This document shows, one piece after another, positions 26,574 to 41,361 of a stretch of DNA of 64,000 bases. This DNA is from Variovorax sp. 54. GTDB lineage: Bacteria; Pseudomonadota; Gammaproteobacteria; Burkholderiales; Burkholderiaceae_C. Positions within the stretch are counted from its first letter, which is position 1. The number at the start of each line of letters is the position of its first letter. Made by a program: the position numbers and the translations under genes. The notes below the pieces were generated by a model, which was not told the origin of the DNA, ran no database searches, and saw only the letters and a list, made by a program, of their open reading frames with translations. The stretch is taken from the NCBI RefSeq assembly GCF_002754375.1, contig NZ_PEFF01000001.1:3358501-3422500 (forward strand), in the 5' to 3' direction.

Positions 26574-27227
26574 TCAGCCCGCGCCGGGCTTGTTGCCGCG
26601 CGCGCCGAGCGAAAGAATCTCGTTGGCGTTGACGATGGCCGCGGCAATGTCTTCCATGGTGGTGCGCTTGCTCATGGCCTGTTCGCGGATCAGGTCGTGC
26701 GCCTGGCCTTCCGACACGTCGTGTGTCTTCATGAGGATGGTCTTGGCCTCGGCCAGCTGCCGCACGCCGAGCAGCTTGGCCTCGGTCTTGCGCAGGCGCC
26801 GCGCGAGCGAGCGGCTTTCCTTGTGCGCCTCGCGTGCGACCACCAGTGCCGAGAGCAAGCCGAACGAGCGCACCGGCGACGGCAGCACGGCCTTGGCGCC
26901 GATCTCGAGCACGGCCTCGACGATGGTCGGGTTCTCGTACGTCACCACCGCGATGACGGCGGGCGCATCCTCGCTCTGGGTCCACTCGAAACGCAGGTTG
27001 ATGAAGTCGGGCAGCACGGCCATGAAGGCCACGTCGATGCCCTCGGGCAGGTGCTGCACGGGCGGCCAGAAGGCCTGCACCTGGCAGCCGATGCGCTGCA
27101 GTTGCTGGGTGAGCTGCCGGCCGTCTGCGTCGTCGGGGTGGATCACCGCGATCTTCAGCAGCCGCAGCTCCTTGAGCTGCGGTGGCGTCACCCGCAGGGT
27201 ATGTCGCTTGGGGGCTGTGCTGTCCAC
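26574..27227 (-). CDS. amiR: ANTAR-domain transcription antiterminator, AmiR-like
   Basis: A 217-aa RNA-binding antiterminator. The N-terminal receiver-like domain (LKIAVIHPDDADGRQLTQQL, about residues 23-140) lacks a clear phospho-acceptor Asp set, as in AmiR. A coiled-coil (SLARRLRKTEAKLLGVRQ) leads into the ANTAR helices EAKTILMKTHDVSEGQAHDL and REQAMSKRTTMEDIAAAIV. AmiR-type proteins are held inactive by AmiC and, when amide is present, bind nascent leader RNA to prevent termination. GTG 27227 has AGGAAG 9 bases upstream; longer frames run through a dispersed repeat. It is the last gene of the amide operon, 342 bp behind amiC. Its probable target is the leader at 39601-39711. Confidence 0.92.
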   Translation of the reverse strand: MDSTAPKRHTLRVTPPQLKELRLLKIAVIHPDDADGRQLTQQLQRIGCQVQAFWPPVQHLPEGIDVAFMAVLPDFINLRFEWTQSEDAPAVIAVVTYENPTIVEAVLEIGAKAVLPSPVRSFGLLSALVVAREAHKESRSLARRLRKTEAKLLGVRQLAEAKTILMKTHDVSEGQAHDLIREQAMSKRTTMEDIAAAIVNANEILSLGARGNKPGAG

Positions 27228-27288
27228 GGTCAGGTCTTCCTGGGGACTTTTCTTGCGGTCGCTTTCGGGGCGCGTGCACAGGACACCG

Positions 27289-27494
27289 GGTACTCCCCTC
27301 CGCGAATGTCCCCCGCCTTCGGCTCCTCCTTGATTTCGCTGCGGGGAGCACCCAGTGCCCTGCGCCCCTGGGCACGCTGCGGGTGCTCGCCGATCAACGA
27401 CCGCTGCTGACAACGATCATGACGATGCGGTGCTCTGCGCAGCGAAATCAAGGAGGAGGCCGCAGGCCGGGGGACATTCGCGGAGCAGAGTACC
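27289..27494. repeat. Structured inverted repeat between amiC and amiR, two arms of a dispersed element
   Basis: The 342-bp gap 27228-27569 holds no gene but is highly structured. Arm A (27289-27343) contains TCCGCGAATGTCCCCC and CTCCTCCTTGATTTCGCTGC. Arm B (27438-27494) carries the same sequence inverted, with modest divergence. Between them lies a two-step hairpin: GAGCACCC/GGGTGCTC outside (27346-27353, 27381-27388) and GTGCCC/GGGCAC inside. Upstream flank 27264-27288 is also shared with the copy at 48602-48653. This looks like a non-autonomous palindromic intergenic element (REP- or MITE-like). In amiR mRNA it would form a large hairpin ahead of the coding region. Confidence 0.75.
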
Positions 27495-27569
27495 GCGTCG
27501 GCGTGGTCGTGCCTCGGTGCACGCACGCGCGTTGCGACAACCGACCCGATGAAGAGGCAAGCCGTCATC

Positions 27570-28724
27570 CTAGAGCTCCAGCGTATCGAGCCGCGCCGTC
27601 CAGTCGCCCAGCGAGTGGGTGACGAGGTAAGGGTCCGGGTACACCGCACGCGTCGCCTGCCGGACGATGGTGAACTGGCCGTGGGCATCGACGCGGCCGA
27701 TGCGCGGGTACAGGCAGGTGTGGTGGTTCGTCGGGTCGATCTTCACGCGGCCCTGCGGCGCATCGAACTCGCTGCCCAGGATGTGCGGCAGGATCTCCGC
27801 GATGCCGTCCGTGCCCGCTTGCCGGAAGGCGTTGGCGAAGATGTGCATCTGGAAGTACGACGCCTCCCAGCACAGGTTGGGCACGCAGCCGTCGCCGAAG
27901 CGCGCGCGCAGCCGCGCCAGGCAGCGCTGGTTGGCGGGCGAGTCGATCGACTGGAAATACGGTGCCGCCGTGAAGTGGCCCGTGGCCACGCCCGGGCCCA
28001 TCTGCGAGATCTCGGCCTCCGAGGTCGTGAGGCTCGAGATGGGCATCGTCTTCGGGTCGAAGCCGGCTTCGGCATACGCGCGGTAGAGGCTGGCGGTGGA
28101 GTCGCCCACCACCGTCGAGAAGATGAAGTCGGGCCGCTTGTCGCGGATGTCGTCCATGATCGCGCGGTAGTCCTTCTCGGTGGCGTCGAGTGCCACGTAG
28201 CGCTCGCCGAGTTTTTCGCTGCCGGGGCGCTGCATCACCAGCTCGCCCATGATGCGGTTCGACTCGTAGGGGTAGATGTAGTCGGAGCCGATCAGGTACA
28301 CGCGCGAACCGAAGTTCGTGGTCATGAACTCGGCCAGCTGCACGCTGTTCTGGTTGGGCGCCGCGCCGGTGTAGATCACGTTGCCCGAGTACTCGAAGCC
28401 TTCGTACAGCGTGGGGTAGAACAGCAGCTTGTTCCACTTCTCGATCACCGGGATCACGGCCTTGCGGCTGCTCGACATGTAGCAGCCGAAGATCACGTTC
28501 ACGCGGTCCTGCACGATGAGCTTTTCGGCCAGCTGGGCGTAGCGCACGGGGTTCGATTGCGGGTCGTAGCGCACGCCCACGAGTTCGCGGCCGTCGACGC
28601 CGCCGGCCGCGTTGATTTCCTCGATGGCCAGCAGCGCGCCCTGCAGCTGCGACAGGCCGATGGTCGAGGTGACGCCGGTCTCGGAATACAGAATGCCGAC
28701 GCGAAGAGGGTCCCTGTCAGCCAC
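27570..28724 (-). CDS. amiC: AmiC-like cytoplasmic amide sensor (periplasmic-binding-protein fold, no signal peptide)
   Basis: A 384-aa type I binding-protein-fold sensor of the size of Pseudomonas AmiC. It opens directly with the fold (MADRDPLRVGILYSETGVTS) and has no signal sequence, unlike the exported paralogue at 38219-39412. Shared ligand-site blocks include FGCYMSSSRKAVIPVIE, LFYPTLYEGFEYSGNV and IGSDYIYPYESNRI. AmiC binds short amides and releases AmiR from an inhibitory complex. GTG 28724 is preceded by AGGAGACACCCCA, a strong ribosome site. It lies 66 bp behind the VWA gene, at the end of the amide operon and just before amiR. Confidence 0.9.
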   Translation of the reverse strand: MADRDPLRVGILYSETGVTSTIGLSQLQGALLAIEEINAAGGVDGRELVGVRYDPQSNPVRYAQLAEKLIVQDRVNVIFGCYMSSSRKAVIPVIEKWNKLLFYPTLYEGFEYSGNVIYTGAAPNQNSVQLAEFMTTNFGSRVYLIGSDYIYPYESNRIMGELVMQRPGSEKLGERYVALDATEKDYRAIMDDIRDKRPDFIFSTVVGDSTASLYRAYAEAGFDPKTMPISSLTTSEAEISQMGPGVATGHFTAAPYFQSIDSPANQRCLARLRARFGDGCVPNLCWEASYFQMHIFANAFRQAGTDGIAEILPHILGSEFDAPQGRVKIDPTNHHTCLYPRIGRVDAHGQFTIVRQATRAVYPDPYLVTHSLGDWTARLDTLEL

Positions 28725-28790: not shown

Positions 28791-30425
28791 TCAATGGGCG
28801 GCGGCCAGCCGCGTGCTCATGCGGGCCAGCCGTGCGGGCAGGCTGCGCGCATCGTCGGCGATGCAATAGTTGCGCCAGCCGAAGATGCGCCGCACATACG
28901 CGTCGGCCGCGCCGTCCACCGCGATGCACGCGCTGCGCACACCGGCATCGCGCGCTTCGGCCACGGCCTGGCGGGCGTCTTCGATGAGGTATTTCGGGTC
29001 GTGCACGTCGATGTCCGACGGCGCACCGTCAGTCACCAGCAGGATCGCGCGCGGCCCGGCCGGCTCGGCCTGCAGGTGCGACGCCGCATGGCGCAGCGCG
29101 GCGCCCATGCGCGTCGAGTAGCGCCCGCGCACCGCACCGATCATGGCGCGCGAGGGCGCAGCCAGCGGCTGGCCGAATTCGAGCAGGCGGTAGTAGTACA
29201 CCTCGGCGCGCGTGTTCGACGAGAAGCCGTGAATGGCCAGCCGGTCGATGCCGCGCGCGTTCGAGGCGGCGAGCAGCAGCGCGGCCTGCTTCTCCAGGTC
29301 GAGCAGTGAAACCGCACCATCGCCGTGGCCCGCGTCGTTGGCCGATTCCGACAGGTCGAGCAGCACCAGCACGCTCGACGGGCGCGGGCCCTTGCCGGGT
29401 CGCATGAACAGCCGCGCGTCGGGCCGCAGGCGCAGGCGGCGATCGACCAGCACCTCGATGGCCGCATTGAGGTCGATGTCGTCGCCTTCCCACTGGCGGC
29501 GCAGGCGGTGCGTGCGGTCGAGGTGGCGCGCGCGGGGCAGGGCGAGAGGCACGATGCGCTCATGGCCCGCCGCCGTTGACGTGCCCATCGCGCCCAGGCC
29601 CTGCCACGCGGGCAGCTTCTCGATCACCGTGCACCAGTCGGGTCGCAGGCGCTCCTGCGTGCGGTCCCATTCGGGGTAGGTGTAGCGGCCGAGTTCCATG
29701 TCGGCGATGCCTTCGGGTGGCGCTTCGTTGCCTTCGCTCGGTGCATCCGAAGGGGGCGGTGGTCGCGCGCCCGTCTGCTGCAGCGCGATGGCTTCGTCGG
29801 GCGGCGTCTCGGCCTCGCCGAAATCCCACAGGTAGCTGTTGTCGTCGCGCCAGGGTGCGGGCACGGCGTAGTCCTGCGGCTCGAAGCGCACGCGCATCTG
29901 GCCGAGGTCGTTGGCGAGGATCGAGGCGACGGCGCGGAAGGCGTCGTAGTCCTCCAGCCCCGCGCGGGCCACGGTCTCGTCGAACAGGCGGCGCGCCTTG
30001 TTCACCCAGTGGTTGTCGTCCTGCGCATTGGCTAGCAGCAGCACGCGGTCCATGCGTGCGACCAGCGCGGCAAAGCGCAGGTCCAGCGGATCGGGTGCGG
30101 GCGGCAGCGCAGCGGTGAACCAGCCATGCAGGCCAGGAAAGTCGCGGCACAGCAGCCGTTCGACGCGCGCGTCTTCAAGGGCCGAGACGATGGCGATGCC
30201 CATCGGCTTGAGCGTGCGCGCCGGCCGCGCGGGCGTCGAGTGGCGCAGGTGTGCGACCGCGTGCGCCACCATCGCGCGGTGCAGCCGCATGGCCTCGTCG
30301 CCTTCGGGCAGCAGCAGCCGGCGGCCCGTGAGCACGGCGCGTGCGCCGGCCAGTGGCTGCACGTCGACGTCGATGCCGACCAGCCCGCGGGCCAGCAGCG
30401 AGAGGGCGCCGTGCCCGTCGTTCAT
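28791..30425 (-). CDS. VWA-domain protein, NorD/CbbO-like partner of the MoxR ATPase
   Basis: A 544-aa cytoplasmic protein. Roughly the first 270 residues are a helical region rich in Arg and Ala (ARTLKPMGIAIVSALEDARV, ARRLFDETVARAGLEDYDAF). The C-terminal von Willebrand A domain carries an intact MIDAS: DLSES at about 352 and VTDGAPSDID near 463. It is coupled to the ATPase gene by ATGA. NorQ/NorD and CbbQ/CbbO pairs remodel or activate metalloenzymes such as nitric oxide reductase and Rubisco; neither target is here. Within this operon the likely client is the amidase, the MetX-like hydrolase or the permease, which is inference. Confidence 0.88.
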   Translation of the reverse strand: MNDGHGALSLLARGLVGIDVDVQPLAGARAVLTGRRLLLPEGDEAMRLHRAMVAHAVAHLRHSTPARPARTLKPMGIAIVSALEDARVERLLCRDFPGLHGWFTAALPPAPDPLDLRFAALVARMDRVLLLANAQDDNHWVNKARRLFDETVARAGLEDYDAFRAVASILANDLGQMRVRFEPQDYAVPAPWRDDNSYLWDFGEAETPPDEAIALQQTGARPPPPSDAPSEGNEAPPEGIADMELGRYTYPEWDRTQERLRPDWCTVIEKLPAWQGLGAMGTSTAAGHERIVPLALPRARHLDRTHRLRRQWEGDDIDLNAAIEVLVDRRLRLRPDARLFMRPGKGPRPSSVLVLLDLSESANDAGHGDGAVSLLDLEKQAALLLAASNARGIDRLAIHGFSSNTRAEVYYYRLLEFGQPLAAPSRAMIGAVRGRYSTRMGAALRHAASHLQAEPAGPRAILLVTDGAPSDIDVHDPKYLIEDARQAVAEARDAGVRSACIAVDGAADAYVRRIFGWRNYCIADDARSLPARLARMSTRLAAAH

Positions 30426-31240
30426 CCGAACTGCGCCTCGACAAAGCCCTGCAGCGCGCTCGCCATTTCGGGGTCGTCGGTGAGGGCGCGCGTCATCGTC
30501 ATGTCGCAGCTGTCGCGCGGCGACACGCCGTCGCGGATGAGCACGCCCGCGTAGATCAGCATGCGCGTCGACACGCCCTCGTCGAGCCCGCGGTGCTTGA
30601 GTTCGCGCGAGCAGTGCGCAATGGCCACGAGCTTCGCGGCGAGGGTGGGTTCGACGCCGGCCTCGTGCGCGACGATCTCCGCTTCGAGCGCGCCGTCGGG
30701 GTAGTCGAACTCCAGCGCTGCGAAGCGCTGGCGCGTCGAGGGTTTCATGTCCTTCGCGCTGCTCTGGTAGCCGGGGTTGTACGACACCACGAGCTGGAAG
30801 TCGGGGTGCGCGTGCACCAGCTCGCCCTTCTTGTCGAGCGGCAGGATGCGGCGCGCGTCGGTCAGCGGGTGGATCACCACGGTGGTGTCCTGCCGCGCCT
30901 CGACCACCTCGTCGAGGTAGCAGATGCCGCCGTGGCGCACTGCGAGCGTCAGCGGCCCGTCGTGCCAGGCCGTGCCGTTCGCATCGAGCAGGTAGCGCCC
31001 CACGAGGTCCGACGCCGTCATGTCCTCGTTGCACGCCAGCGTGACCAGCGGCCGTCCGAGTGACCACGCCATGTGCTCCACGAAGCGCGTCTTGCCGCAA
31101 CCGGTCGGCCCCTTGAGGATCAGCGGCATGCGGTGCCGGTAGGCGTGCCGGTACAGCGCCACCTCATTGCCTGCGGGCCGGTAGAAGGGCTCGGTCTCGA
31201 TGCGGTAGCTGGCGAGCGGGTCGTGGACGGGGGCGTTCAT
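30422..31240 (-). CDS. MoxR-type AAA+ ATPase, CbbQ/NirQ/NorQ family
   Basis: A 272-aa AAA+ ATPase. Walker A GPTGCGKT lies at residues 44-51 and Walker B in ICYLDEVVEA (about 107-116). Sensor and arginine-finger regions are in VSYNPGYQSSAKDMKPSTRQR, and ASDLVGRYLLDANGT is typical of CbbQ/NirQ/NorQ. It overlaps both neighbours by 4 bases (MetX-like gene before, VWA gene after), so the three are tightly coupled. Pseudomonas amidase operons contain an ATPase gene, amiB, whose role is unclear; this may be a functional counterpart but is not shown to be orthologous. Confidence 0.9.
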   Translation of the reverse strand: MNAPVHDPLASYRIETEPFYRPAGNEVALYRHAYRHRMPLILKGPTGCGKTRFVEHMAWSLGRPLVTLACNEDMTASDLVGRYLLDANGTAWHDGPLTLAVRHGGICYLDEVVEARQDTTVVIHPLTDARRILPLDKKGELVHAHPDFQLVVSYNPGYQSSAKDMKPSTRQRFAALEFDYPDGALEAEIVAHEAGVEPTLAAKLVAIAHCSRELKHRGLDEGVSTRMLIYAGVLIRDGVSPRDSCDMTMTRALTDDPEMASALQGFVEAQFG

Positions 31241-32247
31241 GGCGTGGCGAGCAGTTCCTTGAGGGCGTCGTCGATGAAGCGCGTGTCGACCGGGCTGCTG
31301 CCGCCGCCCGCAAAGTGGCCCCACACGCCGGGGATCGGGCGGCACTCGGCGTTCGGCATGTGCGACACCTCCCATTCGTTGTCGGCCACGGGAAAGTACA
31401 GGTCGCGCTCGGCCGGCATGATGATCGCGCGCGCCTGGATGGCGCCCAGCGCTTTCTGGATGTCGCCCTTGAACACCGGGTTGTCGCTGATGTCGCCGTG
31501 CTGCCACGACCACAGCATCGCGAGCAGATTGTTCGCGTCCTTCTGCAGGAAGAAGCCTTCCCAGTAGCCGACCAGGAAGTCTTCGAGCGAACTGAAGCCC
31601 AGCTCGCGCCACAGCTCCTGCATGTAGAAGGGCTGCGACAGGCCCCAGCCCGCATACACGCGGCCGACTGCGCGCAGGCCCTTGCTTGGCGGCGCGCTGT
31701 ACCAGCCGCCGTTCCATGCCACGTCGGCCGTGAGTGCGGCCTTCACGCCTTCGAGGAACACGATGTTGTGCGGCGCCGTCTTCGCCGAGCCGCAGAAGGG
31801 CGCGATGCGTTTCACCATGTCGGGGTAGAGGCAGCCCCACTGGTTGGTCTGCTGCGCGCCCATCGACCAGCCGACCACCAGTGCGATGCGTTCGATGCCG
31901 AATTTCTCCGTCACCAGCCGGTGCTGCAGCGTCACGTTGTCGTAGAGCGTGATGTCCGGAAAGCGCGACAGGTTGTACGGCTCGGGCGTGTTGCTGGGCG
32001 AGGACGACAGCCCGTTGCCCAGCATGTTCGGCACGATGATGAAGTACTTCTCGGGGTCCAGCGCCATGCCCGGACCGATCAGCCATTCGTTGTCGTAATG
32101 CTGGCCCGAGTACCAGGTCGGGTAGACGATCACGTTGCTTTTGTCGGCGTTGAGCTTGCCGTAGGTCTTGTAGGCGAGCTTCGCATTGCGCAGCGTCGCG
32201 CCCCGCTGCAGGGGCACGTCGCCGAGGTCGAAGATGTCGTAGTCCAT
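31237..32247 (-). CDS. MetX-like alpha/beta hydrolase
   Basis: A 336-aa alpha/beta hydrolase of the homoserine O-acetyltransferase-like group. The nucleophile elbow is GWSMGAQQTNQWG, the acid follows in MPAERDLYFPVADNE, and the His is in GVWGHFAGGGSS. It opens with DLGDVPLQRGATLRNAKLAYKT, the MetX-type N-terminus. Because it sits between the permease and ATPase genes of an amide operon, an esterase or amide-related acyl transfer role is more plausible than methionine synthesis. It has no signal peptide, so it acts in the cytoplasm. Start ATG 32247; its stop overlaps the ATPase ATG. Confidence 0.85.
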   Translation of the reverse strand: MDYDIFDLGDVPLQRGATLRNAKLAYKTYGKLNADKSNVIVYPTWYSGQHYDNEWLIGPGMALDPEKYFIIVPNMLGNGLSSSPSNTPEPYNLSRFPDITLYDNVTLQHRLVTEKFGIERIALVVGWSMGAQQTNQWGCLYPDMVKRIAPFCGSAKTAPHNIVFLEGVKAALTADVAWNGGWYSAPPSKGLRAVGRVYAGWGLSQPFYMQELWRELGFSSLEDFLVGYWEGFFLQKDANNLLAMLWSWQHGDISDNPVFKGDIQKALGAIQARAIIMPAERDLYFPVADNEWEVSHMPNAECRPIPGVWGHFAGGGSSPVDTRFIDDALKELLATP

Positions 32248-32279
32248 GGTGTGGTCGCTTTCGCTTTCGAAGGAGGGGT

Positions 32280-33599
32280 TCAGTTCTTGATGGAAGGGGA
32301 AGGCGTGGCCGCCGCCACCGGTGCGGCGCTGCCGATGTGGAGCACGAAGTAGCAGACGCCTGCCGCGATGAAGGCCGCCACCGCCGTCGACAGCTGCGGC
32401 GCCATCGTCTCGGTGGCGTAGGCCACCAGCGAGCCCACGCCCCAGGCGATGAAGGCGCGCGGGCGCCAGTCGGCACCGATGGCGGCGCCGGGCCGCACGA
32501 AGTACAGGTCGGCGATCAGGACGGCACCGATGGGCGGCACCAGGATGCCCAGCAGCGACAGCCACGGAATGAACAGCGCCCACACGTTGGCTGCGGCAAT
32601 CGCGATGCCAACCGCGGCGAGCGCCACGGCGAACACGCGCATGCGCCCGTTGCCGATGCGCGACCAGCCCACGGCCGAGTTGTAGAGGCAGTGCGCGCAC
32701 ACCGAGCCCAGGTTGCACAGCAGGAACACGAAGGCCACCACGGCCAGCCATGGCGCGTTCTGCGCGAGCAGGTAGCCGAACATGTTGTCCAGGCCGAAGG
32801 GCTGCGGTTGCGGCAGCGCCAGTGCGGCCGTCATGACGCCGCCGACCAGCATCGCGACCAGGTTGGCCACCGGAAAGGCGCAGGCCGTGGCAATCAGCGA
32901 ACTCTTGCGGTCGGCGGCCCAGCGGTTGAAGTCGGCCGTGACCGTGCCCGCGTCGATGAACAGCGCCACCACGATGGTCAGTCCGATGCCGAAGGACATC
33001 GGCAACGCGGGTTGCGTGCCGGCGTACGAGAGCACCTTGTCCCACCCCGCCGCGCCGGCCGAATGCAGCGCGACCCAGCCGCCCAGCACCACGAACAGCG
33101 GCACCGACACCATGCCGATCCAGTGCAGCCCGCGAATGCCGACGAAGGTGATCCCCAGGTACAGCACGCCTGCCGCAATCGTCATCGTCAGGTAGTCGAA
33201 CTTGAAGGCCGTGTGCATCAGGTTGCCCGTGATGCCGGTCTGCACCGCGTACCAGCCCAGCAGCAGGGTCGACAGCAGGCCCGACGCGAACACGTAGCCT
33301 TTCTTGCCGAAGCTGGCACTGGCCAGCAGCGCGAAGTTGTGGCCGCGCGCCGTGCCCAGCGCGCCGAGCGCCCCGACATACGCGAACATCAGCAGGTTGC
33401 CCACGACCATCGCGAGCAGCGCGGACCGGAAGCCCATGCCCGCCACCAGGATGGAGCCGGTCATGGCCCCCGTGATGATCATCGGGAACCCGAGCCACAC
33501 CATCGAGACCGAGAAGGTGCTGCGCCGCTTCGAGAGCGGCACCGGGTCGTGCTCGTACTCGTCGCCGAGTACCGTGTCGTCGACATGCGTCTGACTCAT
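32280..33599 (-). CDS. NCS1-type permease (cytosine permease/CodB-like)
   Basis: A 439-aa membrane transporter with about twelve helices. The N-terminus has a soluble leader (VLGDEYEHDPVPLSKRRST) followed by FSVSMVWLGFPMIITGAMTG, the characteristic NCS1 TM1. Further blocks are YLGITFVGIRGLHWIGMVSV and FIDAGTVTADFNRWA. The family takes up cytosine, allantoin, hydantoins or related N-compounds by Na+ or H+ symport. It lies 67 bp behind amiE and 32 bp before the MetX-like gene, so it may import a cyclic amide, nitrile-derived compound or amidase substrate. Substrate unknown. Confidence 0.9.
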   Translation of the reverse strand: MSQTHVDDTVLGDEYEHDPVPLSKRRSTFSVSMVWLGFPMIITGAMTGSILVAGMGFRSALLAMVVGNLLMFAYVGALGALGTARGHNFALLASASFGKKGYVFASGLLSTLLLGWYAVQTGITGNLMHTAFKFDYLTMTIAAGVLYLGITFVGIRGLHWIGMVSVPLFVVLGGWVALHSAGAAGWDKVLSYAGTQPALPMSFGIGLTIVVALFIDAGTVTADFNRWAADRKSSLIATACAFPVANLVAMLVGGVMTAALALPQPQPFGLDNMFGYLLAQNAPWLAVVAFVFLLCNLGSVCAHCLYNSAVGWSRIGNGRMRVFAVALAAVGIAIAAANVWALFIPWLSLLGILVPPIGAVLIADLYFVRPGAAIGADWRPRAFIAWGVGSLVAYATETMAPQLSTAVAAFIAAGVCYFVLHIGSAAPVAAATPSPSIKN

Positions 33600-33666: not shown

Positions 33667-34704
33667 TCAGCGGTGCTTCGCCGGCTCGTTCGGAATGCCC
33701 TCGATCGGGCACTCGGGCGTGCCGACCGTGGTGCGCGTGAACGACTCCACCATCTCGCGCGTGCCCTCGGGGTCGTTGATCCACTGCGTGTAGAAGTTGT
33801 AGGGGCAGGCCGCCACGCCCTTGTCGCCGTCGCCCGAGTTGATGGTGCCGGTGTAGCCGCGGTGCACGAGCTTGAACAGGTGGTTCTGCGACTGGCCGTT
33901 CTTGCGCGCGTCGCGGATCAGGCTCATCGAGAGCTCGGCGTAGTTGATGCCCATCTCTTCCTCGCCGCATTCACCGAGCGTGCGGCCGTCGAAGCCGATG
34001 AGTGCGGAGTGGCCGAAGTACGAGTACACGCCGTCGAAGCCGGCCGCGTTGGCCACGGCCACGTAGGTGTTGTTCATGAAGGCCATGGCCTTCGACACCA
34101 GGATCTGCTGCTCCTTGGCCGGGTACATGTAGCCCTGGCAGCGGATGATGAGTTCGGCGCCGCGCATCGCGCAGTCGCGCCAGATCTCGGGGTAGTTGCC
34201 GTCGTCGCAGATGATGAGGCTCATCTTCATGCCCTTGGGGCCGTCGCTCACATACGTGCAGTCGCCCGGGTACCAGCCCTCGATGGGCACCCACGGCATG
34301 ATCTTGCGGTACTTCTGGACAATCTCGCCCTGGTTGTTCATGAGGATCAGCGTGTTGTAGGGCGCCTTGTTCGGGTGCTCCTCGTGGCGCTCGCCGGTGA
34401 GCGAGAACACGCCCCACACGTTGGCGCGGCGGCAGGCGTCCGCGAAGATCGCGGTCTCCTCGCCGGGGATGGCCGATGCGGTGTCGTACATCTCCTTGGC
34501 GTCGTACATGATCCCGTGCGTGGAGTACTCGGGAAAGATCACCAGGTCCATGCCCGGCAGGCCTTTCTTCATGCCGACCAGCATCTCGCCGATCTTGCGT
34601 GCGTTGTCGAGCACCTCGGCCTTGGTGTGCAGGCGGGGCATCTTGTAGTTGACGACCGCGACGCCGACGCAATCGTTGCTGCTCGAAATATCACCATGTC
34701 TCAT
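33667..34704 (-). CDS. amiE: Aliphatic amidase
   Basis: A 345-aa nitrilase-superfamily amidase. The catalytic triad matches the numbering of Pseudomonas aliphatic amidase: Glu59 in [10 protein letters not shown], Lys134 in [11 protein letters not shown] and Cys166 in [12 protein letters not shown]. It hydrolyses short aliphatic amides (acetamide, propionamide and similar) to ammonia and carboxylate in the cytoplasm, as a hexamer in homologues. ATG 34704 gives [20 protein letters not shown], the family N-terminus. It lies 43 bp behind the ABC ATPase gene, so uptake and hydrolysis are co-transcribed. Expression is expected to depend on AmiC/AmiR. Confidence 0.96.
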
Positions 34705-34747: not shown

Positions 34748-35437
34748 CTACACGGTCAGAAAGGATCGGACCTTGTCCTGGTCGAGCGTGGCGCGCGCTT
34801 CGTCGTGCACGATGCGGCCGCGGTCGATGACGAGAAAGCGGTCGGCCAGGTCGAGCGCGAAGCTCAGCACCTGCTCCGACACCACGACGGCGAAGCCGCG
34901 CTCGGCGCGCAGCACGTTCAGCGTCTGCGCGATCTCCTTGATGATCGAAGGCTGGATGCCCTCGGTGGGCTCGTCGAGGATCAGCACCTTCGGCTCCGAG
35001 ATGAGCGCGCGCGCAATCGCCAGCATCTGCTGCTGGCCGCCCGAGAGGTTGCCGGCCTTGCGCTGCTTCATGTCCTTGAGCACGGGGAAGAAGGTGTAGA
35101 GGTAGTCGGGCACCGTGCGGTGGCCCGACCTTGCAGCGCCCGCGAGGATGTTCTGCTCCACCGTGAGGAACGGAAACACCATGCGCCCCTGCGGCACGAA
35201 GGCCAGGCCCTGCGCCACGCGCTGGTAGCTGGGCAGCTTCGTGAGCTCGGCGCCGCCCAGGCGGATGTGGCCACCGCGCGCGGGCAAGAGGCCGATGAGC
35301 GACTTCAGCAAGGTGGTCTTGCCCATGCCGTTGCGGCCCATGATGGCGACCGCTTCGTCGGGTGCGACGCGCAGCGACACATCGCGGATGACGTGCGATT
35401 CACCGTACGCCACGTTGAGTTCGGAGACTTCGAGCAT
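34748..35437 (-). CDS. urtE: Amide/urea ABC transporter ATP-binding protein (UrtE/LivF-like)
   Basis: A 229-aa ATPase: Walker [10 protein letters not shown] at residues 34-42, Q-loop [13 protein letters not shown], signature [15 protein letters not shown] and Walker [11 protein letters not shown]. The pattern [20 protein letters not shown] and [16 protein letters not shown] is typical of UrtE. AGGAG lies 10 bases upstream of ATG 35437. It is the second ATPase of a urea/short-chain-amide importer together with the gene at 35455 (17 bp upstream). The amidase gene follows 43 bp downstream. Confidence 0.92.
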
Positions 35438-35454
35438 CTGGATATCTCCTCTTC

Positions 35455-36255
35455 TCAATGACCGAGGTACACGTCGATCACGCGCGGGTCGGCCTGCACC
35501 TCGGCGGCGGTGCCTTCGCTCAGCAACTTGCCTTGGTGCAGCACCGTGACGCGGTGCGCGATGCGCTTGACGAAGTCCATGTCGTGCTCGATGACGACCA
35601 CCGACTTGCCCGCCGAGATGCGGCGCAGCAGGTCGCCCGTCTGCTCGCGCTCGCGCGGGCTCATGCCGGCCACGGGCTCGTCGAGCAGCAGCAGCTCGGG
35701 CTCCTGCATGAGCAGCATCCCGATCTCGAGCCACTGCTTCTGCCCGTGGCTCAGTTGCCCGGCGCGATGACCGAGGCGCTCGCTCAGAAAGACCTGCTCG
35801 GCCATCGCGTCGATGCGTTCGCGCACGGCGGGCGTGCGTCGAAAGGTCAGCGACTGCAGCAGGCCGTGCATGCGCGGCAGCGAGATCTCGAAGTTCTCGA
35901 GCACCGTGAGGTCTTCGTAGACCGAAGGCGTCTGGAACTTGCGGCCCACGCCGGCGCGCACGATCTCGTACTCGTTCAACCGCCCGAGGTCCTGGCCGTT
36001 GAACAGCACGCGGCCCGCGCTGGGCTTGGTCTTGCCGCACACCATGTCGAGCAGCGTGGTCTTGCCCGCGCCGTTCGGGCCGATGATCACGCGCAGCTCG
36101 TTGCGCTCGACCGAGAGGCTCAGTCCGTCCACGGCCTTGAAGCCGTCGAAGGACACGGTGAGGTCTTCGATGCGCAGGATCTGCTCGTTCGAGTGCGAGA
36201 ACGCCGCCGCCGCTTGCGGCATGCCGCCGTTGGGCATCGTCATCGTGGCGTTCAT
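35455..36255 (-). CDS. urtD: Amide/urea ABC transporter ATP-binding protein (UrtD/LivG-like)
   Basis: A 266-aa ATPase of the LivG/UrtD type: Walker A GPNGAGKTT, Q-loop KFQTPSVYEDLTVLEN, signature LSHGQKQWLEIGMLLMQ and Walker B LLLLDEPVAGMS. The SHGQKQWLEIGM variant is characteristic of UrtD. It starts at ATG 36255, overlapping the permease stop as ATGA; the longer frame to 36330 is antisense-like. With UrtE it energises import of urea or short amides. Confidence 0.92.
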   Translation of the reverse strand: MNATMTMPNGGMPQAAAAFSHSNEQILRIEDLTVSFDGFKAVDGLSLSVERNELRVIIGPNGAGKTTLLDMVCGKTKPSAGRVLFNGQDLGRLNEYEIVRAGVGRKFQTPSVYEDLTVLENFEISLPRMHGLLQSLTFRRTPAVRERIDAMAEQVFLSERLGHRAGQLSHGQKQWLEIGMLLMQEPELLLLDEPVAGMSPREREQTGDLLRRISAGKSVVVIEHDMDFVKRIAHRVTVLHQGKLLSEGTAAEVQADPRVIDVYLGH

Positions 36256-37307
36256 GGCGCCACCTCCGCAGCGCCGCGTCGGCGCATGAGCTTCTCGCCC
36301 AGGCCCGCAAGCCCGTTCGGCATCGCCCACACCACGAGGATGAACACGGCCCCGAGGAAGTACAGCCAGCCTTCGGGAAAGGTCTCCGACAGGTACGACT
36401 TGAGAAAGCCGATGAGCAGGGCGCCGATCACTGCGCCTGGAATCGACAGTCGCCCGCCGACCGCGGCGTAGATCACCATCTCGACCGAGGCCACGACGCC
36501 GATCACGCCCGGCGCGATCAGCCCCACCTGCAGGCTGTAGAACGCCCCGCCGATGGCCGACAGCACGGCTGCCACCGCGAACACGAAGGCCTTCATGTGC
36601 GCCGTGTTGTAGCCGCTGAAGCGCACGCGGTCTTCCTTGTCGCGGATGGCGATCAGCAGCTTGCCGAAGCGGCTACGCACGATGGCGAGCGACACCACCA
36701 TCACCAGCGCGATGGCCGCCACCTCGACGAAGTACATCGTGCGCTTGGCCTCGTCGGTGGCGATGTCCCAGCCCAGCAGCGTGCGGAAATCGGTGATGCC
36801 GTTGGCACCGCCGGTGTCGCCCTGCTGACCGACCACCACCACGGTGAGCGTGAGCGCCAGCGACAGCGTGACGATCGCGAAGTACACGCCGCTCACGCGC
36901 CGCTTGAAGATCGCGTACGAGAACACATAGGCCAGCACCGCGGGAATCACGAGGATGCCCACGACCGTCCAGCCCAGCGAGTGGAAGGGCTGCCACCACG
37001 CGGGCAGCTGCTCGACGCTGCTCCACACCATGAAGTCCGGCAGCTCGGGCGCGGAGGCTTCGAGCTTGAGGAACATCGCCATCATGTAGCCGCCCAGGCC
37101 GAAGAACATGCCCTGGCCCAGGCTCAGCACGCCGCCGTAGCCCCAGGTGAGCACCACGCCCACGGCGACGAACGCGAAGGCCAGGTACTTGCTGATGAGG
37201 TTCAGGCGGAACGGATCGAGCGTGAGCGGCAGCACCACGGCCAGCAGTGCCAGCACGGCCACCATCGCGCCGAGGTCGCGCTTGCGTTGAGGAGAAAGAC
37301 CGTGCAT
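36252..37307 (-). CDS. urtC: Amide/urea ABC transporter permease (UrtC/LivM-like)
   Basis: A 351-aa inner-membrane permease with about nine helices. It opens MHGLSPQRKRDLGAMVAVLA, and the conserved LivM/UrtC segments are YGGVLSLGQGMFFGLGGYMM, GQQGDTGGANGITDF, AIRDKEDRVRFSGYNT and VGGRLSIPGAVIGALLIG. The QGDTGGANGITDF loop is typical of UrtC. It is 3 bp behind urtB and overlaps urtD by 4 bases. It should form the translocation channel with UrtB. Confidence 0.93.
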   Translation of the reverse strand: MHGLSPQRKRDLGAMVAVLALLAVVLPLTLDPFRLNLISKYLAFAFVAVGVVLTWGYGGVLSLGQGMFFGLGGYMMAMFLKLEASAPELPDFMVWSSVEQLPAWWQPFHSLGWTVVGILVIPAVLAYVFSYAIFKRRVSGVYFAIVTLSLALTLTVVVVGQQGDTGGANGITDFRTLLGWDIATDEAKRTMYFVEVAAIALVMVVSLAIVRSRFGKLLIAIRDKEDRVRFSGYNTAHMKAFVFAVAAVLSAIGGAFYSLQVGLIAPGVIGVVASVEMVIYAAVGGRLSIPGAVIGALLIGFLKSYLSETFPEGWLYFLGAVFILVVWAMPNGLAGLGEKLMRRRGAAEVAP

Positions 37308-37310
37308 GCG

Positions 37311-38213
37311 TCAGCTCCTCGCGCGCGTGGCGAACAGGCCGTTGGGCCGGAAGTACAGCACCGCGATCACCAGCAGCAGGATCGTGGCCTTGGCCATCGA
37401 GCCGCTCATGAGGTACTCGAGCCAGGTCTGCGACTGCGCGATGGCAAAGCCCGAGAGCGCGGTGCCGATGAGGCTCTGCACGCCGCCGAACACCACCACG
37501 ATGAACGAGTCGACGATGTACAGCTGGCCCGTGCCGGGGTTGGTCGAGCCGATCATCGTGAACACCGCACCCGCGATGCCCGCCAGCCCCGAGCCCAGCG
37601 CGAAGGTCATCGCGTCGACGCGGTGCGTGTCGATGCCCACCGCGCCGGCGATGGCGCGGTTCTGCGTCACCGCACGCACCTTCAGCCCCCACGGCGTGCG
37701 GTACAGCAGCAGGTACACGCCGACCGCGACCAGGGCCGTGAGCCCGACGATGAAGATGCGGTTCAGCGGCAGCTGGATGCCCGCCGTGGGCTCCCACGCC
37801 CCCGCCAGCCACGAGGCCAGCGGCACGCTCACTTCCTGCGCGCCGAAGATGGAGCGGTAGGCCTGCTGCAGCATGAGGCTCAGGCCCCAGGTGGCCAGCA
37901 GGGTGTCGAGCGGGCGGTCGTAGAAGAAGCGGATGAAGCCCCGCTCCAGCACATAGCCGAACGCGAAGGTCACAGCAAACGCGAACGGAATCGCGGCGAA
38001 CAGGTACAGGTCCATGAAGCCCGGCGCGTAGTGTTCGAAGAAGCGCGCCGCCAGGTAGGTCATGTAGGCGCCCAGCGCCATCAGCTCGCCGTGCGCCATG
38101 TTGATGACGCCCATCAGGCCGAACACGATGGCCAGCCCGAGCGCCATGAGCAGCAGGATGGTGAACAGGCTCACGCCGTTGAACACCTGCATCACCGCGA
38201 TGTCGAAGTTCAT
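37311..38213 (-). CDS. urtB: Amide/urea ABC transporter permease (UrtB/LivH-like)
   Basis: A 300-aa permease with about eight helices and the LivH/UrtB signature AIVFGLMGVINMAHGELMALG. The EAA-like loop AVTQNRAIAGAVGIDTHRVD faces the ATPases. ATG 38213 (MNFDIAVMQVFNGVSLFTIL) lies 5 bp after the binding-protein stop; the longer frame overlapping that gene is a shadow. It pairs with UrtC as the membrane channel for the imported amide or urea. Confidence 0.93.
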   Translation of the reverse strand: MNFDIAVMQVFNGVSLFTILLLMALGLAIVFGLMGVINMAHGELMALGAYMTYLAARFFEHYAPGFMDLYLFAAIPFAFAVTFAFGYVLERGFIRFFYDRPLDTLLATWGLSLMLQQAYRSIFGAQEVSVPLASWLAGAWEPTAGIQLPLNRIFIVGLTALVAVGVYLLLYRTPWGLKVRAVTQNRAIAGAVGIDTHRVDAMTFALGSGLAGIAGAVFTMIGSTNPGTGQLYIVDSFIVVVFGGVQSLIGTALSGFAIAQSQTWLEYLMSGSMAKATILLLVIAVLYFRPNGLFATRARS

Positions 38214-38218
38214 CGCGT

Positions 38219-39412
38219 TCAGACCTTCGGGAAGGGGTTGGGCTCGACCAGCTGCGGCGATTCCCACACGATGTCGAACTGCCCGTCGGGCCGCGCGCGG
38301 CCCACGCGCACCTTCTTCCACACGTGGTGGTTGGTGGCGTGCACGCGCACCGTGCCTTCGGGCGCCTCGATCTCCACGCCTGCGGCGGCGGCCGTGACCT
38401 TGTCGACCTCGAAGGACTTGGCCTTTTCCACCGCCAGCTTCCACAGGTACACGCTGTTGTAGGCCACCTCCATCGGGTCGCCGATCACGCGGTCCTGCCC
38501 GTACTTGGCCTTGAAGGCCTTCACGAACTTCTCGTTGGCCGGCGACTTGATGCTCTGGAAGTAGCCCATGCAGGCGTAGTAGCCCGCGGCGTTGTCCTTG
38601 CCGATGCCGTCGATCTCGTTCTCGGACACCACGGTCGACAGCAGCACCTGCTTGGTGCCGTCGAGCCCGGCCGCGCGCAGCTGCTTGTAGAAGGCCACGT
38701 TGGAGCCGCCCACCACCGTGCTGTAGATGCAGTCGGGCTTGGCGGCCTTGATCTTGTTGATGATCGACGAGAACTCGGTGTGGCCCAGCGGTGCGTACTC
38801 TTCGCCGAGCACCTTGCCGCCGGCCTTGGCGATGGCGGGCTTGGCGATCTTGTTGCAGGTGCGCGGATAGATGTAGTCGGAGCCGACGAGGAAGAAGTTC
38901 TTTCCCTTCTCGCGCGCCATCCATTCCACGGCCGCGATCACCGACTGCGTGGCTTCCTGCGAGGGATAGAACACGCGCTTGTCCTGCTCCTGGCCTTCGT
39001 AGTAGGTGGGGTAGAACAGCAGGCCCTTGGCCTGGTTGAGCACTGGCAGCAGCGCCTTGCGCGAGGCCGAGGTGTAGCAGCCGATGATGGCCGCGACCTT
39101 GTCGCGCTCCAGCAGCTTGCGCGCCTTCTCGGCGAACACCGAGTTCTCGCTGGCGCCGTCTTCGACCACGGCCTCGATCTTCTTGCCCAGCACGCCGCCG
39201 GCGGCGTTGATCTCTTCGATGGCCAGTTTTTCGGCATCGACCAGCGAGGCCTCGGCGATGGCGATGGTGCCCGAGAGCGAGTGCAGCAGGCCGAGCTTCA
39301 CGGTGGCGCCGTCCTGCGCGCGGGCCAGGCCGGCCACGCCGCCGGCGGCGCCCAGCACGATCATCGAGCCGCCCGTCTTCACGATCTGGCGGCGGTTGAA
39401 AGCGTTCGTCAT
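38219..39412 (-). CDS. urtA: Amide/urea ABC transporter substrate-binding protein (UrtA/FmdD-like)
   Basis: A 397-aa periplasmic protein. A twin-arginine signal (NRRQIVKTGG then a hydrophobic run to GLARAQ) is followed by the type I fold: VKLGLLHSLSGTIAIAEASL, IIGCYTSASRKALLPVL, LLFYPTYYEGQEQDK and FLVGSDYIYPRT. These match UrtA and the short-chain amide binder FmdD. It resembles AmiC, encoded 10 kb downstream, apart from the signal. ATG 39412 has AAGGA about 8 bases upstream. First gene of the 12-gene operon, about 325 bases from the proposed transcription start. Confidence 0.93.
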   Translation of the reverse strand: MTNAFNRRQIVKTGGSMIVLGAAGGVAGLARAQDGATVKLGLLHSLSGTIAIAEASLVDAEKLAIEEINAAGGVLGKKIEAVVEDGASENSVFAEKARKLLERDKVAAIIGCYTSASRKALLPVLNQAKGLLFYPTYYEGQEQDKRVFYPSQEATQSVIAAVEWMAREKGKNFFLVGSDYIYPRTCNKIAKPAIAKAGGKVLGEEYAPLGHTEFSSIINKIKAAKPDCIYSTVVGGSNVAFYKQLRAAGLDGTKQVLLSTVVSENEIDGIGKDNAAGYYACMGYFQSIKSPANEKFVKAFKAKYGQDRVIGDPMEVAYNSVYLWKLAVEKAKSFEVDKVTAAAAGVEIEAPEGTVRVHATNHHVWKKVRVGRARPDGQFDIVWESPQLVEPNPFPKV

Positions 39413-39600
39413 GTCAAATTCCTTTGCTTTGGTTTTGTGCGAGTCATCAGGAACATCCGACCTTCGGAACCGCGTGGTGGGTGTCTCCTCCCGCCGCGCG
39501 GCCCCTGCAAACGAGCGCTGTGCTGCCAGTGCGTTTTCTTCGGGCAAAGCTGCGCCACCGGATGACGCGCATCCGTTTTGAAAAGGCGTTGTTGCGACCG

Positions 39601-39655
39601 AAAAAACAAAAAAGCCCGAACCGGTGGTGAAACCGGTTCGGGCTTTATTGCCCGA
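39601..39655 (-). terminator. Leader terminator with mutually exclusive antiterminator hairpin (P2) of the amide operon
   Basis: On the minus strand a perfect 14-bp stem AAAGCCCGAACCGG / CCGGTTCGGGCTTT (39646-39633 and 39624-39611, 8-base loop) runs into TTTTTTGTTTTTT (39613-39601). This is a textbook intrinsic terminator. Its 5' arm is shared with a second, earlier hairpin, TCGGGC-[AATAAA]-GCCCGA (39655-39638), with a six-base loop. If P2 is stabilised, the terminator cannot form. This is the P2/terminator overlap of ANTAR targets. It lies about 190 bases before urtA. It could instead simply terminate the gene at 39823-40317. Confidence 0.7.
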
Positions 39656-39697
39656 CACCTCGCTGGCAGCACTGGCAGCGGGCGTCGTATGACTGGG

Positions 39698-39711
39698 AAC
39701 GATTGCTCGTT
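39698..39711 (-). promoter_or_regulatory. First hexaloop hairpin (P1) of the proposed ANTAR-responsive leader
   Basis: The minus strand reads AACG-[AGCAAT]-CGTT, a 4-bp stem with a six-base loop, 42 bases upstream of P2. ANTAR targets have two hexaloop stems separated by a variable linker, with A at loop position 1 and G at position 4. Both loops here have A1, but position 4 is A in each, a departure from the published consensus. The stem is short (a tetraloop with a 5-bp stem is the alternative reading). Confidence 0.45.
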
Positions 39712-39743
39712 GGGGCGGATTCTTCTCGTCTCACCCCGGCGTG

Positions 39744-39772
39744 AACATACGCTTTTTCGCTAATTGGCGAAA
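39744..39772 (-). promoter_or_regulatory. Candidate promoter of the amide operon with overlapping palindrome
   Basis: An 18-bp near-perfect palindrome TTTCGCTAATTGGCGAAA (39755-39772, one mismatch) lies in the gap 39413-39822, which otherwise holds the leader and no gene. On the minus strand its distal arm TTTCGC is 17 bases from TATGTT (39749-39744), giving a weak sigma70-like promoter with a start near 39737. The palindrome over the -35 region would suit a repressor or activator that acts in addition to antitermination. The rest of the gap (39413-39600) shows only the urtA ribosome site. Confidence 0.45.
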
Positions 39773-39822
39773 GGGCGGCGCGTGTGCTATTCGCGCGCAG
39801 CGCCTGCGTGAATCAGAGGCGG

Positions 39823-40317
39823 TCAGCTGCGCGGGCGCGCGTAGTCCGACTCGATCCACGCGGTGGCGCTCGACGTCGTGAGCCGGAACGCGGGCGACAC
39901 GTTCACGCTCGCCAGTTCCGAATCGTCGGCATCGTCGTACGCGGTGAGCGTGGCCGAGGGGTTGTCTTCGTCGGGCACGATCGAGAGCGCCACGCGAATG
40001 CGCTGGTCGTTGCGTGCGCTGACCGTCACGCTCTTGTTGAGCGTGGCGTGCAACTGCTGCTCGTGGCGGCGGATCACCTCGGCGGCGGTCTTCACGAGCG
40101 TGTGGAAGGCGGGGGTGTCCAGCGGCTTGGGGTTCTTCTTGTCGCGGCCCATGGTCCAGGGGCCGACGAGCGCGGGCTCGGGGTCGCCGTGGCGGGTCAT
40201 CTCGACGGCCCAGCCGTCGTCTTCCTCGTTCTTGATGATGCGGGCGGTCCAGAGGTCGTCGCGCCAGAGGCGGGGTTCCTGCAGGGGGAGGTGGTCGGGG
40301 GAATCGGTCGTCGTCAT
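39823..40317 (-). CDS. Hypothetical protein, about 164 aa
   Basis: A soluble acidic 164-aa protein (MTTTDSPDHLPLQEPRLWRD) with no family I recognise. It is rich in Asp and Thr, with blocks WTARIIKNEEDDGWAVEMTR and HTLVKTAAEVIRRHEQQLHA, and ends in SDYARPRS. Its ATG directly abuts the stop of the upstream LysR gene (0 bp), so they are co-transcribed. Similar small proteins occur as conserved hypotheticals in Variovorax-like genomes. No function is proposed. Confidence 0.72.
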   Translation of the reverse strand: MTTTDSPDHLPLQEPRLWRDDLWTARIIKNEEDDGWAVEMTRHGDPEPALVGPWTMGRDKKNPKPLDTPAFHTLVKTAAEVIRRHEQQLHATLNKSVTVSARNDQRIRVALSIVPDEDNPSATLTAYDDADDSELASVNVSPAFRLTTSSATAWIESDYARPRS

Positions 40318-41265
40318 TCAGGGAGAAGCTTTGGGTCTTGCGCGGGGCATTGTCGCCCGGGGCGCGGGGGCCGCCGCCGTGCCAACGTACTGTTGCAAGC
40401 CCTCGACCAGCGCATCGAAGGCCACGCGGCAGCGCGGGCTGTGGCGCAGGTCTTCGTGCATCGTGACCCAGGTGTCGAGCTTGAGCGAGAGCGCGCGCGG
40501 CAGCAGGCGCATCAGCGCGGTGTCGCGTCGTGCCAGGCCGACCTGGCAGATGCCGATGCCCGCGCCGGCGCGGATGAGCGCCAGCTGCGTCAGGTCGCTG
40601 TCGGTGCGCAGCGAAAAGGTGTCGCGGCCGATGCCCTTCAAGGCCTTGCCGGCGTTGCGCACGAAGGCCGAGGGCTGGTCGTAGCCGATGACCGCGTGGC
40701 TTGCCAGTTCGTCGAGTTTGCGGGGCGTGCCGTGGCGCGCGAGGTAGTCGCTGCGCGCATGAAAGCCCAGTTCGATCTGCCCGATGTGGCGTGCCACCAG
40801 CTGCTCCTGCCTGGGGCGCACCATGCGCACGGCGATGTCGGCCTCGCGGCGCAGCAGGTCTTGCACGCGGTTGGTTGCGACCAGCTCGACCTTCAGCGCC
40901 GGATGCGCCTCGCGCAGCCGCGCGACGATGGGCGGCAGCACCTCGACGCCGATCACCTCGCTGGCCGATACGCGCACCACGCCGCGAACGCCTTCGCCCT
41001 GGCTGCTGGCGGCGCGCTCCAGCGAGGCGGCGGTGCTCTCCATGGCCTCGGCATGGGTTCGCAGGGCCTGCGCCACTTCGGTCGGCATGAGTCCGACCTG
41101 CGAGCGCGTGAACAGCACCACGCCCAGTGCTTTTTCGAGCGCCGCGACGTGGCGCCCGGCCGTTGGCTGGGTGATGCCCAGCGTGCGTGCCGCGCCCGAC
41201 AGCGAGCCTTCGCGCAGCACGCCGAGGAATGAACGGTAGAGCTCCCAGCCGATGTTCGAGGTCAT
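40318..41265 (-). CDS. LysR family transcriptional regulator, divergent to an oxidoreductase gene
   Basis: A 315-aa LysR protein. The HTH (residues about 5-65) reads YRSFLGVLREGSLSGAARTL and ITQPTAGRHVAALEKALG. The effector domain starts near 90 with VRGVVRVSASEVIGVEVLPP. ATG 41265 is the natural family start; an upstream frame to 41337 is unsupported. It faces the NAD(P)-dependent oxidoreductase at 41362. The 96-bp gap contains CAATT-CC-AATTG (41298-41309), a perfect dyad that may be its box. Confidence 0.9.
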   Translation of the reverse strand: MTSNIGWELYRSFLGVLREGSLSGAARTLGITQPTAGRHVAALEKALGVVLFTRSQVGLMPTEVAQALRTHAEAMESTAASLERAASSQGEGVRGVVRVSASEVIGVEVLPPIVARLREAHPALKVELVATNRVQDLLRREADIAVRMVRPRQEQLVARHIGQIELGFHARSDYLARHGTPRKLDELASHAVIGYDQPSAFVRNAGKALKGIGRDTFSLRTDSDLTQLALIRAGAGIGICQVGLARRDTALMRLLPRALSLKLDTWVTMHEDLRHSPRCRVAFDALVEGLQQYVGTAAAPAPRATMPRARPKASP

Positions 41266-41361
41266 GCATAAATGTATAGCTGCTGTCTCATGTTGGGCAA
41301 TTCCAATTGAACAGGCTTCTGCCCAGAATTCACGCATCGATCACTGTTCTGGAGAGTTTTC

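Follow-up and report, generated by a model that had tools for sequence, protein, structure and literature searches.

A run of 12 minus-strand genes in Variovorax sp. 54 begins with a urtA-like gene, ends with an amiC-like gene and amiR, and is preceded by DNA that can fold into several hairpins and an intrinsic terminator. The locus raises the question of whether this DNA acts as an attenuation leader under the ANTAR protein AmiR and, if so, which of its hairpins AmiR reads. The sequence-only reading of the window (the whole 64,000-nucleotide stretch analysed, positions 3,358,501 to 3,422,500 of contig NZ_PEFF01000001.1) had proposed ANTAR-controlled antitermination, with two hairpins, here termed P0 and P2, as the dual motif. 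All leader parts that it named were found on the minus strand where it had placed them. A hairpin that it overlooked, P1, lies between the two. The features, in window coordinates and in the direction of transcription, are as follows.

39744-39771, minus strand: promoter candidate of the sequence-only reading, TTCGCC-N16-TATGTT, the best sigma70-like match, weak
39719-39724, minus strand: possible -10 element AAGAAT, 7 nt 5' of P0, a weak match
39698-39711, minus strand: P0, AACG[AGCAAT]CGTT, an extra 5' hairpin, which can also be drawn as a 5-bp stem closed by a GCAA tetraloop
39653-39687, minus strand: P1 with extended lower stem CGACGCC/GGTGTCG and bulged A39660, from the predicted fold
39661-39680, minus strand: P1, the proposed AmiR-read hairpin, CGCTG-C-C[AGTGCT]G-C-CAGCG (outer stem CGCTG, C.C mismatch, C-G closing pair)
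39638-39655, minus strand: P2, predicted antiterminator hairpin TCGGGC[AATAAA]GCCCGA, core GGGC/GCCC
39601-39646, minus strand: intrinsic terminator, 15 perfect stem pairs (39646-39632 with 39625-39611), loop TTCACC
38219-39412, minus strand: urtA-like substrate-binding protein, first gene behind the leader (TIGR03407, 526 bits, cut-off 492.75)
34748-38210, minus strand: urtB, urtC, urtD and urtE-like transporter genes (UrtB and UrtC over cut-off; urtD and urtE named from translations alone)
33667-34704, minus strand: amiE, aliphatic amidase (NF009802, 721 bits, cut-off 427)
28791-33599, minus strand: cytosine-type permease, MetX-like hydrolase, CbbQ/MoxR-type ATPase and VWA protein
27570-28724, minus strand: amiC-like sensor with a periplasmic-binding fold (PF13433; TIGR03407 336 bits, below cut-off), named by its place before amiR
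26574-27413, minus strand: amiR, with AmiR_N and ANTAR domains; the true start is probably later

Both hairpins of the earlier reading are present, and the 3' arm of P2 is shared with the 5' arm of the terminator. The terminator had been described as a perfect 14-bp stem ending in T6-G-T6; the tail (39613-39601) is as described, and the stem has 15 perfect pairs rather than 14. The urtA start codon (ATG, 39412-39410) lies about 190 nt downstream, the distance given earlier. The leader RNA folds better than shuffled sequences (z of -6.6, with 0 of 200 shuffles as good). The Rfam scan of the window returned no match over the curated threshold, and no ANTAR entry was among 14 weak matches at 39300-40000. 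A match to an existing ANTAR RNA entry, which the sequence-only reading had suggested seeking, was thus not obtained. Also present in the window, in the amiC-amiR gap just before amiR and thus within the proposed operon, is a largely palindromic repeat of about 245 bases (27263-27509) whose arms pair at 93%. There are 23 other near-full copies of it in the genome (83-92% identity), and 82 matching pieces when both strands and the repeat itself are counted.

Related loci, denoted by L numbers, were collected through the UrtA-like first protein (80 loci, the best 80 of 190 relatives), giving 81 upstream regions with that of the window; those of L063, L086 and L090 end at a contig edge. A strict scan for a hexaloop hairpin with one mismatch position, a hexaloop P2 and an overlapping terminator succeeded in 42 of these regions. 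The same scan succeeded in 1 of 1620 sequences made by resampling, in 2 of the 81 reverse strands and in one unrelated tile among 424 tiles of the window. Covariance model R1 (E 0.01 or better) added 23 regions, 16 of them in its own alignment, for a total of 65. Divergent hairpins were recognised by eye in L087, L091, L095, L088, L107, L112 and L113. AmiR_N was not found in the L107 genome, nor in the genomes of L096 and L097, where no leader was seen, nor in that of L085, which has a leader. Within the genus, 18 of 99 other genomes carry a nearly full-length copy of the leader (86-99% identity); most of the other same-genus matches cover the terminator alone.

An alignment of P1 and P2 (A1; 56 leaders, 47 distinct rows) has 88.3% of its cells paired versus 75.4% in shuffles. 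Two-sided changes occur in 13 of the 15 pairs and amount to 95 cells versus 25.6 in shuffles (0 of 500), which take no account of kinship. Pairing falls to 23-37% when the partners are slid by 1-3 columns, a comparison that favours the A1 structure, as it was written from the same sequences. The conservation with compensatory changes that the earlier reading had expected of both its hairpins across related genomes is therefore seen for P2, and for P1 along with it. When the model was run on its own genome, with the leader among its training sequences and 150 of 6554 candidates scored, there was one good place, the leader (E 7e-13; next 0.7). Among 399 genomes sampled from the order, a model match under strict filters was found in 11 and AmiR_N in 24, with both in 7; seven of the 24 AmiR_N genomes thus have a match. 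The seven matches below E 1e-4 are all in AmiR_N genomes, and the four weaker ones are not. Weak matches (E 0.001-0.008) were dropped, as their genomes lack AmiR_N.

The leader is also linked to amiR by gene order. Of two batches of genomes, all 46 in the first and 19 of the 23 in the second contain an AmiR_N gene; in 41 of the 46 it is found on the strand of urtA, 4-14 kb behind that gene. In this last count, placement on the same contig was deduced from coordinates and, where given, equal contig size, and L061 is not included because the AmiR position lies beyond the end of its 3,893-base contig. Absence of AmiR from leaderless genomes proved uninformative as a test, with AmiR_N still in 9 of 12. 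The layout had been described as unlike the classical one, in which the leader directly precedes amiE. The leader does stand before urtA in the window, but the contrast is not sharp, since it directly precedes amiE in L178 and L181. It precedes the permease in L179 and, at the same place, in L102, where it is about 2.6 kb upstream of urtA. In L147 the order is amiC, amiR, leader and amiE, with a weak model score (E 0.095). In L103, L104 and L105 the sequence upstream of urtA looks like the final part of the hydrolase gene, and no leader is seen directly before urtA. By this reading, urtA is not the first gene there and gene order differs.

Two P1-P2 units occur in tandem before the same gene in L093 (2697-2855), L094 (2692-2853) and L081 (2593-2752), each followed by a T-run as judged by eye; L094 has a third, weaker unit (190-244). 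L260 has two leaders about 1 kb apart (7085-7138 and 8071-8126) around one AmiR gene, both with A at position 4 of the P1 loop (A4).

P1 has the features expected of the first hairpin of an ANTAR target. With P2 it forms two hexaloop hairpins of at least 3 pairs before a terminator, with A at loop position 1 (A1) in both, G at position 4 (G4) in P1, C:G closing pairs on both and a linker within the 5-12 nt range (5 nt when all 6 bp of P2 are counted, 7 nt when measured to the core). An ANTAR protein of matching specificity is encoded nearby (amiR, 26574-27413, Glu160 with G4). Among the 47 distinct rows the closing C-G of P1 is invariant, as is A1, and the outer stem covaries strongly. At the mismatch, 38 rows have C.C, 6 have C.U and 3 have an A-U pair, and the five lower-stem pairs keep a standard pair in 31-39 rows. 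Loop position 4 is G in 33, A in 13 and T in 1. Because position 6 is mostly T (40 of 47), A1 and U6 are paired in the computed fold of P1, and on paper the hexaloop is therefore not the lowest-energy form.

In P2, 90.4% of alignment cells are paired, the closing C-G is found in all 47 rows and A1 in 46. Position 4 is A in 42 rows, G in 4 and T in 1, and the window loop is AATAAA. The sequence-only reading had noted that both its loops carry A rather than G at this position. The better P1 carries G4, which lifts that concern for P1; it stands for P2. We file the A4 of P2 as a variant, as a published ANTAR search is described as letting a single variation pass, with conservation of only over 50% in actinobacteria (PMC8164766). 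G is not forbidden at this position, since it is found in P2 of L073, L075, L076 and L081 (by scan) and of L245, L246, L251, L252 and L254 (by eye). Tyr164 (His in the window AmiR) was considered as the cause of A4 and rejected, as most AmiRs of the set carry Tyr there. In the terminator form, the U-tract lies opposite the A residues of the P2 loop, so that loop and terminator share letters; perhaps this double use as terminator A-tract keeps the loop A-rich and G off position 4.

P2 and the terminator are mutually exclusive on paper, as the GCCCGA arm is common to both. Before the 3' arm of the terminator is made, the predicted fold contains P0, P1 and the P2 core GGGC/GCCC together. The forced antiterminator is predicted to be 10-16 kcal/mol weaker than the terminator form, suggesting that a protein must do the work.

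In EutV, base 4 (in the description of P2) forms bonds with Glu160, Lys149 and Arg142 and is stacked on by Tyr164, and the E160A change weakens RNA binding about 60-fold; the density in that structure is an average of both hairpins (PMC8934654). In EutV numbering, the window AmiR has K149, E160, H164 and M172. Across relatives, the AmiR residue at position 160 tracks base 4 of the P1 loop, which is the new point of this work. In a first set of 64 leader-AmiR pairs, all 42 script-scored G4 loops go with Glu160; counting L099, in which a heptaloop carrying G4 (AATGATT) was read by eye, G4 is present in 43 of the 45 Glu pairs, and the two that break the rule (L061 and L064) have A4. G4 occurs in none of the 19 pairs with Asp, Lys or Arg at this residue. 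L075 was left out of this set, as its AmiR extends past the contig end.

For a later set, the DNA around AmiR genes was searched in 23 stretches, and 11 of these yielded an accepted leader (L240, L241, L244-L246, L251-L254, L257 and L260); ten pairs remain because the AmiR match of L241 lacks an ANTAR part. Four of the leaders (L252, L254, L246 and L245; E 0.02-1.3) were accepted on a visible P2 and a terminator with T-run, with the residues already known. In L246 and L254 the loop AACAAA scores equally, and AAAGGT was taken because the longer stem supports it. Model matches in L249, L258 and L261 were discarded on inspection by eye, as no terminator could be seen. No match at E 2 or better was found in L242, L243, L247, L248, L250, L255, L256 and L259, and L262 yielded neither a model match nor an alignable ANTAR part. 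In these ten pairs, Glu goes with G4 in 7 of 7, and Asn, Ile and Ala with A4 in 3 of 3.

Taken over all 74 pairs, Glu occurs with G4 in 50 and with A4 in 2, and G4 is found with other residues in 0 of 22. When the nine loops that depended on reading or correction by eye (L087, L088, L091, L095, L099, L112, L113, L144 and L147) are removed, subtraction gives 45/2/0/18 for Glu with G4, Glu with A4, other residues with G4 and other residues without it. These counts include nine pairs in which AmiR was not shown on the contig of the leader (L048, L061, L068, L071, L078, L082, L088, L091 and L093); three of these genomes have two AmiR_N genes, and the AmiR paired with L088 lacks the key Met172 and may be the wrong one. 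The column of residue 160 ranks first among variable AmiR columns for coincident changes and normalised mutual information: first of 187 in the first set (p 2.2e-5) and first of 188 with all 74 pairs (p 2.2e-4). In a two-state count on the tree, six of the seven changes in the loop share a branch with a change in the residue. Contrasts on well supported (starred) branches number 3 in the first set and 2 with 74 pairs, with none in the opposite direction; so few allow no significant sign test.

The residue and the base thus appear, from the aligned sequences, to have changed together across relatives. On balance we favour a one-residue code, in which residue 160 would set P1 base 4 (Glu with G; Asp, Lys with Gln149, Asn, Ile, Ala and Arg with non-G) and would have been rewritten several times in Burkholderiales and beyond. 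Base-specific recognition would then rest on P1, and P2 would not be read at base 4 because its loop must also be the terminator A-tract. That the link reflects shared ancestry rather than mutual adaptation is unlikely, if a serious rival: several of the branches carrying the coincident changes are poorly supported and the starred contrasts are very few, but column 160 outranks the other variable AmiR columns on the same tree, and residue 160 is the one known to contact base 4 in EutV. The same tracking across genomes argues against a leader read by another ANTAR protein, which we consider extremely improbable. The genome does have three ANTAR matches, of which only one is of the AmiR_N kind, and that amiR lies in the same gene run. 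The two further ANTAR genes lie close together at about 1.17 Mb (G000:C1 1171786-1171935, plus strand, and 1176041-1176199, minus strand), and one of them adjoins DNA matching an ABC-transporter ATPase. Nor is this probably just the ordinary terminator of the upstream gene pair (a LysR gene at 40318-41337 and an unknown gene at 39823-40317), with the hairpins as by-products. Those genes have the same orientation and the terminator stands behind them, so it may serve that end too; but such a terminator needs no P1 or P2, and these covary before urtA, amiE and the permease with visibly different DNA further upstream, which makes a mere terminator highly improbable.

The place of P0 requires more weighing, as the dual motif could instead be P0 with P2, or P0 could be a third AmiR-read hexaloop of a triple array. 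Of 54 distinct leaders, 35 have a hexaloop stem of at least 4 pairs within the 45 nt that precede P1 (6.9 expected), and 24 have one with A1 there (2.1 expected). In an alignment of 47 nearer-relative rows, from which 13 divergent leaders had been left out beforehand, 82.5% of P0 cells are paired and there are 25 two-sided cells (0 of 500 shuffles), with two of five measures not beyond shuffles. The P0 loops of L078, L106 and L082 (the last by eye) start with A, have A4 and close with C:G, like their own P1 loops. In the window, however, the P0 loop is closed by a G:C pair and carries A4 in spite of the Glu160 of AmiR, and 42 nt separate the hairpin from P2. The predicted fold pairs its A1 with U6 and leaves a GCAA tetraloop, and many distant leaders lack P0. 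The compensatory changes expected of this hairpin are seen in part, among nearer relatives. A role for P0 in the motif is thus improbable, and as the ANTAR P1 it is rejected on the linker, the closing pair and base 4. Judged from the sequence, the earlier reading picked the wrong first hairpin; the better P1 is 39661-39680. P0 is best viewed as an additional hairpin on the 5' side, which may lie close to the start of the RNA.

The region is thus very probably a transcription-attenuation leader read by AmiR, as first proposed. The claim of ANTAR-controlled antitermination is well supported by the covarying, conserved P1 and P2, a P2 and a terminator that on paper exclude each other, the presence of amiR in the gene run and the co-change of AmiR and loop. 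Points against are the A4 of P2 in place of the published G4, and that the co-change is at P1, when the EutV bonds to base 4 are described for P2 (PMC8934654). By default, the nascent RNA would fold P0 and P1 and then the 15-bp terminator, stopping transcription. Binding of amide by AmiC would release AmiR, a signal suggested by analogy from the amiC-amiE-amiR gene set and Pseudomonas aeruginosa (PMC3369931). AmiR would bind the P1 hexaloop (A1, and G4 via Glu160) and then P2, holding GCCC in P2 and out of the terminator; to be effective, AmiR bound at both would have to act before the terminator 3' arm is completed. RNA polymerase would then read through into urtABCDE-amiE and probably on to amiC-amiR, which would place all 12 genes under amide control.

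The start of the transcript may be at either of two places. A sigma70-like promoter had been placed at 39749-39772, and TTCGCC-N16-TATGTT is indeed the best match in 150 nt, using approximate scan weights. The same place is best in L034-L039, and the best matches of L043 and L047 are there as well. The match is weak, however, and 30 of 60 leaders (8.9 expected), the window not among them, have a best -10 whose end lies 28-46 nt upstream of P1, close to P0. Upstream of this P0-side -10 a conserved box like GGGTAA-N-TAC-NNAT was seen by eye (e.g., in L064, L072, L073, L075 and L076), possibly an activator site.

Known systems were compared through excerpts of the ANTAR literature (PMC3369931, PMC3369936, PMC8934654, PMC8164766, PMC7496416 and PMC9045362). 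The closest is the amiE leader of P. aeruginosa, with its AmiC-AmiR pair, aliphatic amidase and terminator overlapped by a second hexaloop hairpin (PMC3369931; PMC3369936). According to these papers both of its loops are A1/G4, whereas the window leader stands before urtA and has a conserved P1 C.C mismatch, a P2 with A4 and an additional hairpin on the 5' side. The eut leaders of Enterococcus faecalis share two hexaloops, A1, a short linker, a P2 that excludes the terminator and the contact of Glu160 with base 4 (PMC8934654). Their P1-P2 linkers are 5-12 nt, and lengthening to 14 nt drastically cut induction (PMC3369931). Unlike AmiR, EutV is described as a phosphorylated response regulator, and both eut loops have G4, unlike P2 of the window; some relatives of the window leader have lost G4 and Glu160 together. 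For NasR and the nasF leader of Klebsiella oxytoca, the likeness is that RNA selection with NasR recovered A1/G4 loops of this kind with C:G closing pairs (PMC7496416); the genes differ, and NasR senses nitrate within the same protein. ANTAR matches in Burkholderia and upstream of urea transporters are reported in PMC3369931; the excerpted text does not name the Variovorax leader beside them. No residue-base co-change in ANTAR systems was found among the titles and abstracts listed by searches of open-licence papers.

In summary, the hairpin to test at this locus is corrected from P0 to P1, and searches that demand G4 in both loops can, this suggests, miss such leaders. In the excerpts compared, the published rule is one A1 and G4 consensus for all ANTAR proteins. 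The AmiR proteins and their leaders bear on how an ANTAR protein picks its own RNA, as they form a natural series in which contact residue and contacted base change together, making a direct swap experiment possible, and this series could help assign ANTAR regulons to their regulators.
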